NCBI GenBank assembly: GCA_017539045.1
Contig: JAFYHS010000021.1
Span: forward strand, 1-64,000
Origin: Bacteroidales bacterium
GTDB lineage: Bacteria; Bacteroidota; Bacteroidia; Bacteroidales; F082
DNA length: 64,000 bases
Direction of reading: 5' to 3'
Of this stretch, positions 12,893-47,710 are shown in pieces (the first letter of the stretch is position 1; each line of letters begins with the position of its first letter). Made by a program: the position numbers and the translations under genes. Below the pieces are notes generated by a model, which was not told where the DNA came from, searched no databases, and saw nothing but the letters and a program-made list of their open reading frames with translations.

Positions 12893-13537
12893 TTAGAAAT
12901 TAAGTTGGAACGACAATCCCACATGCGCGTATTGTGGCATCTTAACGGGCGACTCCATGGGCCGCAGGTAAGGGTCGACGCTGAGGCTGAGGTCGTCGCT
13001 GATGTCGTAGGAATAAAGGTGTCCGTCGACGCAGGCATCGAGGATGTTGAGACCGTACCAGGCAGCGGTGAGGATGCAAAAGAACTCAAAGTCGCGTCGG
13101 TACGATTCCTTATAGGTCTGCAGCTGCCCTTCGGCGTATTTGTTGGCCAAATCAGACTCGTGTTCGTTGAGCGTTACGCCTTCGGGCAGGTCGCCAGTCT
13201 TGAATTCGTAGGCATGCAAGTATGACTTGTACTCGTAATAGTTGTTATAGGCCATGTAGCCGAGACCGCCCAGTCCGGCATAAACAATAGGCACCTTCCA
13301 CCATTTTCGGTTGTAGACCTGTCCCAATCCAGGGAGGCAGGCCGACATGATGGTGGCTTTCTTGGGGCTGTGAGGTTTCTTGACTTTTGCGGTCTTGGTC
13401 GGCTCTTGTTGTTTGACAACGGTGTCGGCGGTGATGAGGGCGTTGCCCACAGTGTCGAACACCACATTCTGCGCTTCCGTTTGCTGAGAGGCGAAAAGAA
13501 GGATGATGCCTAATAGAAACAGGAAACGGCGCAGCAT
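12893..13537 (-). CDS. DUF5683-type membrane-associated protein
   Basis: About 214 residues, function unknown. A signal peptide or N-terminal anchor (MLRRFLFLLGIILLFAS) is followed by a Lys/Pro-rich stretch and then the core ATIMSACLPGLGQVYNRKWW, which is typical of DUF5683 proteins. A hydrophobic hairpin (VPIVYAGLGGLGYMAY) follows. The C-terminal part resembles outer-membrane-associated strands. The gene sits between parB and dapB in many Bacteroidota, so its position is conserved although its role is not known. The ATG at 13537 was preferred over a GTG at 13546 that overlaps the parB stop. Confidence 0.75.
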   Translation of the reverse strand: MLRRFLFLLGIILLFASQQTEAQNVVFDTVGNALITADTVVKQQEPTKTAKVKKPHSPKKATIMSACLPGLGQVYNRKWWKVPIVYAGLGGLGYMAYNNYYEYKSYLHAYEFKTGDLPEGVTLNEHESDLANKYAEGQLQTYKESYRRDFEFFCILTAAWYGLNILDACVDGHLYSYDISDDLSLSVDPYLRPMESPVKMPQYAHVGLSFQLNF

Positions 13538-43740: not shown

Positions 43741-43836
43741 TTCTTTTATAGAAGAAATTTTCTGCAAAAATAGGAAATATTTCTTTTATAGAAGAAGTTT
43801 TATTGAAAAAGTTGAAATTCTTCTTTTATGGAAGAA
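43741..43836 (-). promoter_or_regulatory. Three 16-bp operator-like palindromes, 40-bp period
   Basis: TTCTTTTATAGAAGAA occurs at 43741-43756 and 43781-43796, and TTCTTTTATGGAAGAA at 43821-43836. Starts are exactly 40 bp apart, about four helical turns. The minus-strand -7 element TATTTTTG (43772-43765) lies between the first two, so one site covers the expected transcript start and two lie upstream. Confidence 0.75.
43765..43772 (-). promoter_or_regulatory. -7 element for the AAA/DUF4143 gene
   Basis: The minus strand reads TATTTTTG, 30 nt before the ATG at 43734. It sits between palindromes 1 and 2. Confidence 0.55.
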
Positions 43837-43896
43837 ATAGTATTGATGGAAAGAATGGTTTTCTGAATTTGTAATGCAATTATCAGAAAAATACGC

Positions 43897-43904
43897 TATC
43901 TTTG
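43897..43904 (+). promoter_or_regulatory. -7 element ahead of the structured RNA region
   Basis: TATCTTTG followed by GCGCC. Transcription from here would start near 43911 and produce a leader of about 310 nt before the methyltransferase start, containing the RNA fold at 43989-44192. Confidence 0.6.
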
Positions 43905-43988
43905 CGCCATATAAATATCAAACGTATCGTAGAGATAAAAATAGAGAATAAATAACATAGTATAAACCAAAGCATTAGCTATTATTTC

Positions 43989-44192
43989 GCGTTTACCGAA
44001 GCCCACCAAATTTATCGGAAATAAAACACAGAAATAATTAGTGAAGGATTAGCCGTAAATGGATGATTCTTTTACCCAGTTGTAATAAGTAATGCTCATG
44101 CCTACGGGTGTGAGTACTTATTTGGGTAAAAGGTTTCCGTGGTGGGCAACCTTGGTAAGCGCAATAAGGAAAGCACCTTTTCTTTATGCGCT
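43989..44192 (+). ncRNA. Candidate structured leader RNA or small RNA
   Basis: Nested complementary segments seen by hand are: 43989-43997 with 44154-44162 (9 pairs, one G-U), 44001-44008 with 44140-44147 (8), 44016-44021 with 44134-44139 (6), 44069-44078 with 44123-44132 (10), 44084-44091 with 44115-44122 (8), and a hairpin 44095-44102/44107-44114 closed by a UACG tetraloop. A separate hairpin at 44158-44192 (14 of 16 pairs, loop CAC) uses the same bases as the outermost helix, so the two states exclude each other. No T-run follows it. No open frame of note is present. It precedes the EcoRI-type methyltransferase and could be its regulatory leader or an independent RNA. No known family was recognised. 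The rest of the 43735-44226 gap is AT-rich, with no gene seen. Confidence 0.55.
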
Positions 44193-44226
44193 GTGATTGA
44201 TGGCAATGCAAAAACTATCAATCATA

Positions 44227-45288
44227 ATGGCAGGAAACATCAATCTTCATGCTGCAAATAAAGCCAAAAAAGACGAGTTTTATACTCAACTTGTTGATAT
44301 TGAGAACGAGTTGAGACATTATAAAGAGCATTTTAAAGGTAAAACGGTGCTTTGTAATTGCGACGACCCGCGTGTGAGCAACTTTTTCCACTATTTCAGC
44401 TTCAACTTTGAGCAACTTGGACTGAAAAAGTTGATCACGACTTGTTACAAAAACCAAAACCGCGACTTGTTCAGTCAAAACGATGCCGAGCAAGCCATTT
44501 GGTTGGAGTATTTCGGCGACCGCAACGGCAACCGTGTGCCTGACCCAGAAGAAATAGGCATCCATTATTTCAAAGGCGATGGGGATTTTCGTTCCCAAGA
44601 GTGCATCGACTTGCTGAAAGAAGCCGATATTGTGGTGACCAATCCGCCATTTTCCTTGTTTCGTGAGTATGTGGCGCAGTTAATAAAGTATGAGAAGAAG
44701 TTTGTGATTATTGGGAACCAAAATGCAATTACGAACAAGGATTTCTTCCCGCTAATCAGAGATAACAAGTTGTGGCTTGGTTATGGCTTTAAGGGTGGAG
44801 CCGGTCATTTTTATAGTAAATACGAGGATGTTGCAACCGCTGGCGACCACCGCAAAGGTATGATTCGTGTTTCTGGCGTTAATTGGTTCACAAATTTGGA
44901 AATACAAAAACGACACGAAGATATCATTTTATTCAAAACATATAATCCCGAGGAGTATCCAAAATATGATAACTATGATGCAATTAACATAGATAAAACT
45001 TCTGACATTCCGATGGATTATAATGGTTTTATGGGTGTGCCGATTACATTTATGGATAAGTACAATCCTGAGCAATTCGAGATATTGGGCATTTGCGCAG
45101 GAAACAGTAGATTAAATAAATTCTATGGTATTGTGCCATATTCGCCACATCCCGAAGACAGGGGAGGATGCGCTGTGTTGAATAATAAAAGAGTATATAG
45201 CCGTATCCTCATCCGTCGCAAGCAAAAGCCAATAGACTACGCTTCGATAGAACCGACGGTCTCGATGGCGGCAGAAGGAACTGAATAG
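44227..45288 (+). CDS. EcoRI-type adenine-specific DNA methyltransferase
   Basis: 353 residues. It matches the EcoRI-methylase family: start region AANKAKKDEFYTQL, the VLCNCDDPRVSNFF block, and the catalytic motif IV NPPF at Asn139 (DIVVTNPPFSLF). The C-terminal part contains WFTNLE and GVPITFMDKYNPEQFEI. It should methylate adenine N6 with S-adenosylmethionine; the recognition sequence cannot be inferred. Several in-frame starts occur from 44197 on; the ATG at 44227 fits the family N-terminus. Codon use is more A/T-rich than in the flanking housekeeping genes, suggesting acquisition. The next gene, DUF262-HNH, is 94 nt away. Confidence 0.88.
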   Translation: MAGNINLHAANKAKKDEFYTQLVDIENELRHYKEHFKGKTVLCNCDDPRVSNFFHYFSFNFEQLGLKKLITTCYKNQNRDLFSQNDAEQAIWLEYFGDRNGNRVPDPEEIGIHYFKGDGDFRSQECIDLLKEADIVVTNPPFSLFREYVAQLIKYEKKFVIIGNQNAITNKDFFPLIRDNKLWLGYGFKGGAGHFYSKYEDVATAGDHRKGMIRVSGVNWFTNLEIQKRHEDIILFKTYNPEEYPKYDNYDAINIDKTSDIPMDYNGFMGVPITFMDKYNPEQFEILGICAGNSRLNKFYGIVPYSPHPEDRGGCAVLNNKRVYSRILIRRKQKPIDYASIEPTVSMAAEGTE

Positions 45289-45382: not shown

Positions 45383-46474
45383 ATGAACATAGAACTACAC
45401 AAAATCACCGTCCGCGAGCTGACCAAAGGCTACGTGGACAACAACGAAAACGGCGTCCGCGCCTACGGTGGTCGCCTCGACGTGCGCCCGCCCTACCAGC
45501 GCGAGTTCGTCTATAAGGAAAAACAGCGCGATGCCGTCATCGACACGCTCACCCAAGGCTTCCCGCTCAATGTGATGTATTGGGCCGTGCGCGACGACGA
45601 CACCTTCGAGATCATCGACGGGCAGCAGCGCACCATCAGCATCTGCCAATACGTCAACGGCGACTTCGCCTTCAACTTCCGCTATTTCCACAACCTCCAG
45701 CCTGATGAGCAGGAGCAAATCCTCAACTACGAACTGCAAATCTACATCTGTAGTGGCACCGACAGCGAGAAGCTGAAATGGTTTCGCACCATCAACATCG
45801 CGGGTGAGGCGCTTACCGAGCAGGAGCTGCGCAACGCGGTGTACGCAGGCAGTTGGGTGAGCGACGCCAAACGCTATTTCAGCAAGAACGGTGCACCTGC
45901 CGCAAAAATCGGTAGCGACTACCTCAACGGCTCTGCCATCCGTCAGGACTACCTCGAAACCGCCATCGACTGGATTTCCGATGGCAACATCGAGGTTTAC
46001 ATGTCGAACCACCAGCATGATGCCAGTGCCGCACCGCTGTGGCAGTTCTTCCAGTCGGTCATCACGTGGATTGAGACTTCGTTCCGACCAACCAAGGAAC
46101 GCAAGAAGATCATGAAAGGCGTGGAGTGGGGGATGCTCTACAAGCAATACAAAGACCAAGTGTTTGACTACAAAGCCATTGATGAAGAAGTGAAACGCCT
46201 CATCCTCGACGACGATGTAACCAAAAAGACGGGCATCTATCCCTATATCCTCACGCGCAAGGAGAAATACTTGTCAATTCGAGCTTTCACCGATGCGCAG
46301 AAACTGTCGGCCTACGAAAGGCAGATGGGTTTTTGCGCCGATTGCGGTCAACACTTCGAGCTATCGCAAATGGAAGCCGATCATATCACGCCGTGGCATT
46401 TGGGCGGGAAGACCATCGCGGAGAATTGTCAGATGCTCTGCAAGGATTGTAATAGACGGAAGAGTGGGAAATAA
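45383..46474 (+). CDS. DUF262 domain protein with C-terminal HNH nuclease
   Basis: 363 residues. The N-terminal DUF262/GmrS-like domain has YQREFVYKEKQRDAVIDTL and the DGQQR motif at 79-83, thought to bind or hydrolyse nucleotides in GmrSD-type enzymes. The C-terminal HNH nuclease has Cys318 and Cys321 in CADCGQ, the EADHITPWHLGG core near 333-344, and CKDCNRR at 356-362. In known defence enzymes (GmrSD, SspE) DUF262 is paired with a nuclease domain that acts on modified or foreign DNA. Placed behind an adenine methyltransferase, it may be the restriction part of a two-gene module. Base composition is richer in G+C than the methyltransferase, so the pair may be assembled from different sources. 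Confidence 0.85.
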   Translation: MNIELHKITVRELTKGYVDNNENGVRAYGGRLDVRPPYQREFVYKEKQRDAVIDTLTQGFPLNVMYWAVRDDDTFEIIDGQQRTISICQYVNGDFAFNFRYFHNLQPDEQEQILNYELQIYICSGTDSEKLKWFRTINIAGEALTEQELRNAVYAGSWVSDAKRYFSKNGAPAAKIGSDYLNGSAIRQDYLETAIDWISDGNIEVYMSNHQHDASAAPLWQFFQSVITWIETSFRPTKERKKIMKGVEWGMLYKQYKDQVFDYKAIDEEVKRLILDDDVTKKTGIYPYILTRKEKYLSIRAFTDAQKLSAYERQMGFCADCGQHFELSQMEADHITPWHLGGKTIAENCQMLCKDCNRRKSGK

Positions 46475-46639: not shown

Positions 46640-47710
46640 ATGGAAGCGAAAAAACTGCAAGCAGCATTGGAGAAATGGAACGCCATTCAACCCTTGTCGG
46701 AGAAAGACCGAGAAAGGTTGAGTCGGAAGTTTTCCGTTGATTTCAACTATAACAGCAATCATATTGAAGGCAATACTCTGACATACGGTCAAACCGAATT
46801 GCTTTTGTTGTTTGGGAAGGTCATCGGTGAGGCTGATTTTCGGGAATATGAGGAGATGAAAGCGAGCAATGTGGGACTGAAAATGATGACCGTTGAGGCT
46901 GTCGACCAAGACAAGCCACTCACTCAAAACTTTATTCGGACTCTGCATCGTACGTTGCTACGTGAGGATTACACAGTATATAGAACGCTCCCTGGGGGCG
47001 TGCAGACCAGTTATGTCATTCATGCGGGGCAGTACAAAACCCGTCCTAACAGTGTAATTACTCGCTATGGTGACCGTTTCGACTATGCTTCTCCCGAAGA
47101 GACGCCCGCGTTGATGGCTGAGTTGGTGGATTGGTATAATCAAACGGAACAAAGCGGTACTTTGTCGCCTGCCGATTTGGCCATTTTATTTCACTATCGC
47201 TACATACGTATTCACCCGTTTGAGGATGGCAACGGACGCATAGCCCGACTTCTGATGAATTTCATCCTTTCAAGGCATGGTTATCCGATGATTGTGGTGC
47301 GAAGTCGACAAAAGCAGCAATATCTTGAAGCCTTGCATCGCTCGGATTTGAAGGTGGGAAGTGGGCCGTCGGTGGGCGCCAAAGCCACTATTCAGCAAAT
47401 CAAGCCTTTCCAAAAGCACATGACAGACCTCATGGCGCATGAGATAGAGATGGATACGCTTTTCGTGACGGAGAAATCGGAGGATTTGTGGTGGTATGAC
47501 GGACAAAGAATCATGTTCCGTACGCCTACCTACGGAAAAATCCTAAACGAATTGCTAACTGATAGTCATCCTACATACGCAACTTTGCAGGAAGCGACTG
47601 GGGTCAACCGCTCGGCTCTTCAGAAAATGATACAAACCATGATTGAAAAGGGATATATCGAACGTGATGATGAGGGTGGCTGGCGCGTGTTCATCACCTC
47701 ATCTATGTAA
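46640..47710 (+). CDS. Fic-domain protein with winged helix
   Basis: 356 residues. The N-terminal inhibitory helix carries SNHIEG (Ser39-Glu43, the (S/T)xxxE(G/N) motif), and the Fic core has HPFEDGNGRIAR at 192-203. The C-terminal winged helix (about 300-350, LQEATGVNRSALQKMIQTMI) probably binds DNA. Fic enzymes usually transfer AMP to protein hydroxyls; with an intrinsic inhibitory helix the enzyme is normally silent (class II). GGTGGTAA palindromes flank the gene on both sides, and the C-terminal DNA-binding domain could be what binds them, giving autoregulation. Targets unknown. Confidence 0.9.
   Translation: MEAKKLQAALEKWNAIQPLSEKDRERLSRKFSVDFNYNSNHIEGNTLTYGQTELLLLFGKVIGEADFREYEEMKASNVGLKMMTVEAVDQDKPLTQNFIRTLHRTLLREDYTVYRTLPGGVQTSYVIHAGQYKTRPNSVITRYGDRFDYASPEETPALMAELVDWYNQTEQSGTLSPADLAILFHYRYIRIHPFEDGNGRIARLLMNFILSRHGYPMIVVRSRQKQQYLEALHRSDLKVGSGPSVGAKATIQQIKPFQKHMTDLMAHEIEMDTLFVTEKSEDLWWYDGQRIMFRTPTYGKILNELLTDSHPTYATLQEATGVNRSALQKMIQTMIEKGYIERDDEGGWRVFITSSM

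Follow-up and report, generated by a model that had tools for sequence, protein, structure and literature searches.

A leader RNA of the Bacteroidales with mutually exclusive pairings, upstream of DNA methyltransferase genes and many unrelated genes: a candidate attenuation-type switch

The RNA that precedes an EcoRI-type adenine DNA methyltransferase gene in a member of the Bacteroidales belongs to a large class of leader RNAs that is absent from Rfam 15. Comparison of its relatives indicates that the pairings are kept via compensatory changes and exclude one another, and that the RNA stands just upstream of genes on the same strand. With moderate confidence we take these RNAs to form a class of their own, new leader switches that act in cis through attenuation-type control. 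The window, i.e. the whole stretch of DNA that was analysed, comprises 64,000 nucleotides, and the RNA, its flanks and the two genes after it lie on its plus strand. The preliminary description of the region had pointed to the layout of a regulatory switch, and a conserved pseudoknotted leader RNA with alternative pairings is indeed found directly before the start codon.

Architecture of the window RNA

The methyltransferase (PF13651) is encoded at 44227..45288 and is followed at 45383..46474 by a GmrSD_N (DUF262)-HNH protein, which corresponds to the PADLOC model REase_II. In the Bacteroidota the -7 promoter box has the consensus TAnnTTTG, and on reading the sequence a candidate box that resembles it was found upstream (TATCTTTG, 43897..43904). 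The 5' flank of the RNA (AACATAGTATAAACC, 43954..43968) recurs, judged by eye, in a similar form (ACATA or close to it) ahead of most relatives.

Folding of positions 43960-44240 yielded six mutually nested stems, with a minimum free energy of -94.9 vs -61.5 (sd 4.6) for shuffled sequences (z -7.29; 0 of 200 shuffles as good); for the minus strand z was -3.86. The nested helices ending in a UACG hairpin, as described earlier, were thereby confirmed. The outermost stem, P1 (11 bp), joins 43989..43999 to 44152..44162, and P2 (8 bp) joins 44001..44008 to 44140-44147; in the relatives the 5' strand of P2 lies inside a hairpin loop. Further inward follow a third stem of 7 bp (44016-44022/44133-44139), the hypervariable helix P4 (10 bp; 44069..44078 with 44123..44132), P4b (7 bp; 44084-44090/44116-44122) and P5 (9 bp; 44094-44102/44107-44115, the strands X and X'), which is closed by UACG at 44103-44106. 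An alternative to the end of P4 is the hairpin AAGGTT..AACCTT (44130..44153), the loop of which contains the 3' strand of P2. Downstream of P1 lie a 3' hairpin (44164..44187), with region 4 or X2 (GCACC, 44173-44177) in its loop and then a U-rich tract at 44178-44185, and a terminal hairpin (TGTGATTGATGG/CTATCAATCATA, 44192..44226) that ends at the start codon and is seen in relatives as well.

Four regions of this RNA can exchange partners. Region 1 (GCATTAGCTATTATTTC, 43972..43988) is able to pair with region 2, which consists of a first part (GAAATAATTAG, 44031..44041), complementary to 43979-43988, and a second part (44083..44102) that comprises the 5' strand of P4b, the complement of 43972-43979, and X. 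Region 3 (44107..44122), made up of X' (44107-44115) and the 3' strand of P4b, pairs with region 2 or with region 4. Region 2 can thus be held by region 1 or by region 3, and region 3 by region 2 or by region 4, the pairings of each set being mutually exclusive. Among 48 RNAs, 45 carry at least six T in the eight positions after region 4 (T fraction 0.84 vs 0.29 further downstream), a U-run that is also part of the order-wide search model R2 (see below).

In the preliminary description it was P1 and the 3' hairpin that were thought to compete. The two do share four bases (44159-44162), but their competition is weak, since in nested folding the P1 pairs have a probability of 0.93-1.00 and the rival basal pairs of the 3' hairpin one of 0.04-0.07. 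By comparison of the sequences, the pairings maintained by the relatives are 1:2, 2:3 and 3:4, and not this pair. The pseudoknot suggested as an option (43979-43988/44031-44041) has a probability of 0 in the nested folding program because such a program cannot draw pseudoknots; the relatives speak for it, as the strands around it prefer the partner in their own RNA to the partners in other RNAs (53 of 64 better than the median; none of 5000 permutations gave so low a value). Nor has the verdict that no RNA family could be recognised changed. Across the window, the sole Rfam 15 matches that pass are a tRNA and a partial 5S rRNA, neither of them over the leader RNA, and a search of 43760-44300 at E up to 5 gave three sub-threshold matches, all at chance level. 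In 48 loci that hold a relative or a related gene, nothing above the gathering score overlaps the RNA.

Relatives and the conservation of the pairings

A blastn match to the window RNA (E up to 0.01), often covering the conserved ends only, was present upstream in 61 of 80 methyltransferase loci, and in 59 of the 76 that have more than 250 nt of upstream sequence. Five loci that gave no such match (L069, L070, L073-L075) nevertheless contain a divergent version of the RNA. Within the genus, the covariance model R1 found 112 matches in 65 of 99 genomes (E up to 0.001). A second model, R2, was built from 16 compact members, two of them Kiritimatiellota sequences that lie next to the same enzyme, and matched 84 of 247 genomes of the order, belonging to 66 of 173 genera (E up to 0.01; at most 11 candidates scored per genome). 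A pattern for one sequence type had found 0 of 393 across the order, and in view of the R2 matches it was too strict to show absence. Ten genomes, picked for having R2 matches, contain 100 places in total (5 to 17 per genome). For the two Kiritimatiellota genomes R2 gave additional matches, 4 in one and 1 in the other at E up to 0.01, with some weaker ones; the two best matches there are the sequences used in the model itself and are excluded from these numbers. None were found at E up to 0.05 in nine other genomes, two of them Elusimicrobia. Four viral methyltransferase loci (L111-L114) have the enzyme and a restriction-type gene with 0 blastn matches to the RNA upstream, and a strict sequence pattern gave 0 matches in viral contigs.

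Several observations stand beside these counts. One Kiritimatiellota contig carries two equal-scoring R2 matches 3.4 kb apart (G561:C8:9505-9659 and 13072-13226), and in L115, L146 and L162 DUF1016-like genes are preceded, judged by eye, by a shortened piece of the leader's 5' part. Two loci of the genus with a C5 methyltransferase (L128 and L171) were considered as carriers and left out of the carrier counts; they have the 5' pattern only, and L171 has no R1 match. In the literature, the supplementary motif lists of surveys such as that of 3161 RNA candidates (PMC8040213) aside, no description was recognised as this RNA, and the class has apparently not been described before.

For the genus, 82 distinct RNAs were collected and seven odd ones dropped (L159, L103, L104, L052, L014, L011 and L151). 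Of the remaining 75, 64 were used, and 32 of these with an identity below 0.80 form the alignment A2. The alignment A3 holds 16 RNAs, and A4 holds 48 distinct ones; the order-wide loci behind A4, and behind the placement counts given below, are the 30 best R2 loci and 20 picked places. Homologues without compensatory changes had been named beforehand as evidence against the proposed fold. In A2, however, three helices show 111 double-sided changes vs 29.4 in shuffles, with 97.4% of the cells paired, and a second set of pairs shows 152 double-changed cells vs 42.8 (96.9% paired). The corresponding numbers are 30 vs 10.3 in A3, and in A4 93 vs 27.7 for P1 and P5 and 21 vs 6.3 for 1:2 and 3:4; A3 and A4 are biased towards 1:2 and 3:4 by construction, a bias from which P1 and P5 in A4 are free. 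Across the counts 91.4-97.4% of the cells are paired, a fraction that falls to 24-56% when the partners are slid by 1-3 columns. In the variety of pair types the alignments do not stand out clearly from the shuffles (68, 56 and 21 of 500 for the two A2 counts and A3). Highly conserved positions are few: 34 columns reach at least 90%, mostly in helices, H1 or the U-run.

Blind scans of all column pairs led to the same helices. In order, they returned P5, X':X2, P2 and P1 for A2, and X':X2, P5 and 1:2 for A3. For A4 they returned P5, X':X2, the 5' end with the U-run, and then 1:2 and P1; this alignment leans towards 1:2, 3:4 and the U-run because these belong to model R2. P5 and X':X2 are the top two helices in all three scans. 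When the strands of each RNA were compared with foreign partners, 0 of 5000 permutations were as low for 1:2, 2:3, P5, 3:4, P4 and P1, vs 556 and 2412 for control pairings. In the genus set the same value of 0 was obtained for P5, 3:4, P4, P1, P2 and the pairing between region 1 and part one of region 2 (controls: 4758 and 3415). The pairing between region 1 and part two of region 2 was weak there (34 of 64; 18 of the 5000 permutations reached as low a value); these permutations, like the shuffles above, ignore the relatedness of the sequences.

The helix P4 is hypervariable. A duplex is possible in the P4 region of all 64 genus RNAs, with -14.3 kcal/mol for the own vs -5.7 kcal/mol for a foreign partner, and in 17 pairs of RNAs with a scaffold identity of at least 0.95 the identity of P4 averages 0.68, with a minimum of 0.42. 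P4 changes fast in sequence while staying paired. Drift of a spacer helix or selection for diversity are both possible causes; in our view the diversity may avoid cross-pairing between the copies in one genome. A helix that is hypervariable and yet paired turns diversifying selection on RNA into a testable question.

Downstream genes and placement

From the stronger of the 112 R1 matches, 89 distinct RNAs were counted for placement. For the 88 genus RNAs with more than 400 nt of sequence, a same-strand ORF lies within 150 nt in 74 (median 39). The remaining 14 comprise 8 with a same-strand ORF further off and 6 facing an opposite gene; in L226, L229 and L241 the next gene is on the opposite strand only. 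Upstream of the genus RNAs the genes show no such preference (33 on the same strand, 29 on the opposite one). Across the order, an ORF of at least 100 aa starts within 160 nt on the 3' side in 38 of 47 cases vs 4 of 44 for the mirrored 5' side, and the distance from the end of the RNA to the ORF has a median of 69 nt. Together with the compensatory changes, this placement upstream of same-strand genes marks the element, on comparative grounds, as a probable structured cis-regulatory RNA.

The genes themselves are diverse. Within the genus, the same 5' start and the same terminal hairpin at the ATG were found before an Acyl_transf_3 acyltransferase, GT2 glycosyltransferases and a DUF2334 protein, the hairpin ending a few bases from the ATG also before such heterologous genes. 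GDSL lipases, a GtrA protein, an Eco57I-type methylase and small HTH-like proteins follow the RNA as well. In a Pfam analysis of 20 downstream proteins, six belonged to DNA-methyltransferase families (MmeI-type twice, one of them below the cut-off, N4/N6, C5, N6/HsdR-type and EcoRI-type), one was a SNF2/ResIII/PLD protein and six had no match. The others include a BspA-like LRR protein with a T9SS tail, PKD, BACON, WD40, WG-repeat and DUF6175 proteins, Lcl_C (below the cut-off) and a MotA/ExbB match. L235, taken by eye for a restriction enzyme, and L240, taken for CsgG-like, have no Pfam match. Among 34 downstream proteins with full or near-full sequence, nine of which have no Pfam match, no RNase toxin family of the kind that partners a type III antitoxin was found, and the reading as a type III antitoxin RNA was rejected. 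A recombinase guide RNA was likewise discarded, as no recombinase gene occurs among the scanned downstream proteins.

A role specific to the methyltransferase, or as partner in a defence system, had been considered in the preliminary description. It is not borne out, since the RNA also stands before unrelated genes and the sequences do not co-vary: the pairwise identities of RNA and methyltransferase show no correlation (largest rho 0.24) in the 53 loci with enough methyltransferase sequence. Between the window and L031 the methyltransferases are 98% identical, and the RNAs are alike at their ends only. The DUF262-HNH gene is 97-99% identical across the window, L031, L038, L039, L042, L068 and L094, the methyltransferase 69 to 98%; the residues of the methyltransferase that vary most are those from about 285 onward. 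The restriction genes of the window are followed by a gene for a Fic-domain protein (46640-47710), and close relatives of it occur likewise in L031, L038, L039 and L068. In the Elusimicrobia loci L107 and L108 the same gene pair is preceded by another strongly folding leader (MFE -126 and -130.5), about 300 nt before the methyltransferase, which contains a variable-looking helix; R2 finds nothing in those genomes.

A proposed mechanism, its alternatives and known systems

We propose that the RNA combines a scaffold, the pseudoknotted core with P1, P2 between two hairpin loops and the hypervariable P4, with a moving part, the relay of 1:2, 2:3 (P5 and P4b) and 3:4. Region 4, and then the U-run, lie some tens of nucleotides upstream of the start codon of the adjoining gene, which the RNA would control in cis. 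Pairing of 3:4 together with the U-run would stop transcription or block translation, 2:3 would permit expression, and a signal acting on the core would decide between them. In the window the controlled genes would be that of the methyltransferase and perhaps also the DUF262-HNH gene. The exclusive 2:3 and 3:4 pairings with a U-run after region 4 have the layout of an attenuator, the pairs and the U-run being partly contained in the search model.

When growing transcripts were folded, 1:2 was predicted to form first in 42 of 48 RNAs, and P5 then, before region 4, in 45 of 48. Expression would appear to be the default state, since the full-length nested fold keeps P5 in 43 of 48 and favours 3:4 in 2 of 48; 3:4 would then depend on a signal or on the fold with the pseudoknot. 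For the loop of a terminator, the distance from region 3 to region 4 is long. In the window 3:4 (X':X2) is limited to about 5 bp, and the A/U-rich 3' hairpin nearby may substitute for it. A leader peptide in region 1 was rejected, as short ORFs that overlap this region are rarer than expected (3 of 48 vs a shuffled mean of 11.4, sd 2.6). A coding AUG in P5 was rejected as well; judged by eye, not all members have it, and the P5 loops differ in length.

An alternative is a translational leader whose U-run is no terminator and in which the RNA, together with the terminal hairpin at the ATG, sets the access of the ribosome. The closeness of the genus hairpin to the ATG, also before heterologous genes, the low yield of 3:4 in nested folding and the presence of a second conserved element, DUF805b, between RNA and gene in 12 of 32 places agree with such a leader; the U-run after region 4 in 45 of 48 RNAs would however need another explanation, and across the order the RNA ends far from the start region (the median of 69 nt), so that we regard this reading as rather unlikely. 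That the RNA is a stand-alone small RNA acting in trans, which stands before genes by chance, seems improbable: the strongly one-sided placement of the genes speaks against it, as do the hypervariable P4 and the want of an obvious exposed conserved seed, even though a 3' end with a U-run, the several copies per genome and the three loci with an opposite-strand gene only would suit such an RNA.

Downstream genes that are diverse and often of a mobile type, several copies near contig ends and one tandem repeat of the RNA with a paralogous gene (L264) would fit a mobile or recombination element that acts as DNA, attC-like or MITE-like, and carries genes. The copies are dispersed, however, with 0 neighbouring pairs closer than 5 kb among the 100 places in ten genomes, by which arrays of the integron attC type were rejected; tandem pairs occur at other loci (L264 and L263). 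The orientation of the RNA is moreover fixed relative to the next gene, and exclusive pairings with a one-sided U-run fit an RNA, which makes a DNA element very improbable. Hardly credible is RNA-programmed modification, in which the RNA would serve the methyltransferase/restriction system as its partner or set its specificity. The hypervariable P4, and the difference in body and P4 between the near-identical methyltransferase loci of the window and L031, would agree with it, but the unrelated genes, the absent correlation and the four viral loci that hold the same enzyme pair and give no blastn match to the RNA do not.

Returning to the attenuation-type switch, a more far-reaching proposal can be put forward tentatively, as one that we hold somewhat short of even. 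The RNA would be an undescribed peptide-free attenuator class, widespread in the Bacteroidales and with relatives in the Kiritimatiellota, that brings unrelated genes of the phage and host interface (DNA methyltransferase types, surface and secreted proteins) under one signal, the hypervariable paired helix keeping same-genome copies from cross-pairing. If this is true, a large gene-control system has been overlooked in an order that is dominant among the bacteria of gut and rumen. The 100 places counted in ten genomes, with secreted proteins and several restriction-modification types downstream, would then share one signal for which a search is now possible.

The Rfam motifs DUF805 and DUF805b (RF03081 and RF02914; clan CL00115) are of the cis-regulatory type too, and reportedly stem from a 2017 paper. 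DUF805b lies on the same strand as this RNA, 27-41 nt after it, in the 12 places mentioned (7 of them in one of the ten genomes); in the other 20 it occurs without this RNA, and the window itself has no DUF805b match. Both motifs are short (35-68 model positions), and in the loci examined they do not overlap with this RNA. In L237, L265, L267 and L272 DUF805b lies between this RNA and the next gene, accompanied by DUF805 in two of them. DUF805b, so far an orphan motif, seems in part of its occurrences to be a module within the larger leader described here.

In peptide attenuators of the trp type, 1:2, 2:3 and 3:4 pairings exclude one another and region 4 is followed by U. This RNA shares both features, but it has no leader peptide and carries a large pseudoknotted scaffold in between. 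Type II restriction-modification leaders are similar in that the window RNA precedes a methyltransferase gene that adjoins a restriction-type gene, whereas this RNA is common to many unrelated genes. Riboswitch classes for second messengers are known to control many and diverse target genes. With these the RNA has in common the many copies per genome before unrelated genes, the conserved core and the alternative pairing near the gene, and it differs from them in having few highly conserved positions and no match to an Rfam riboswitch.
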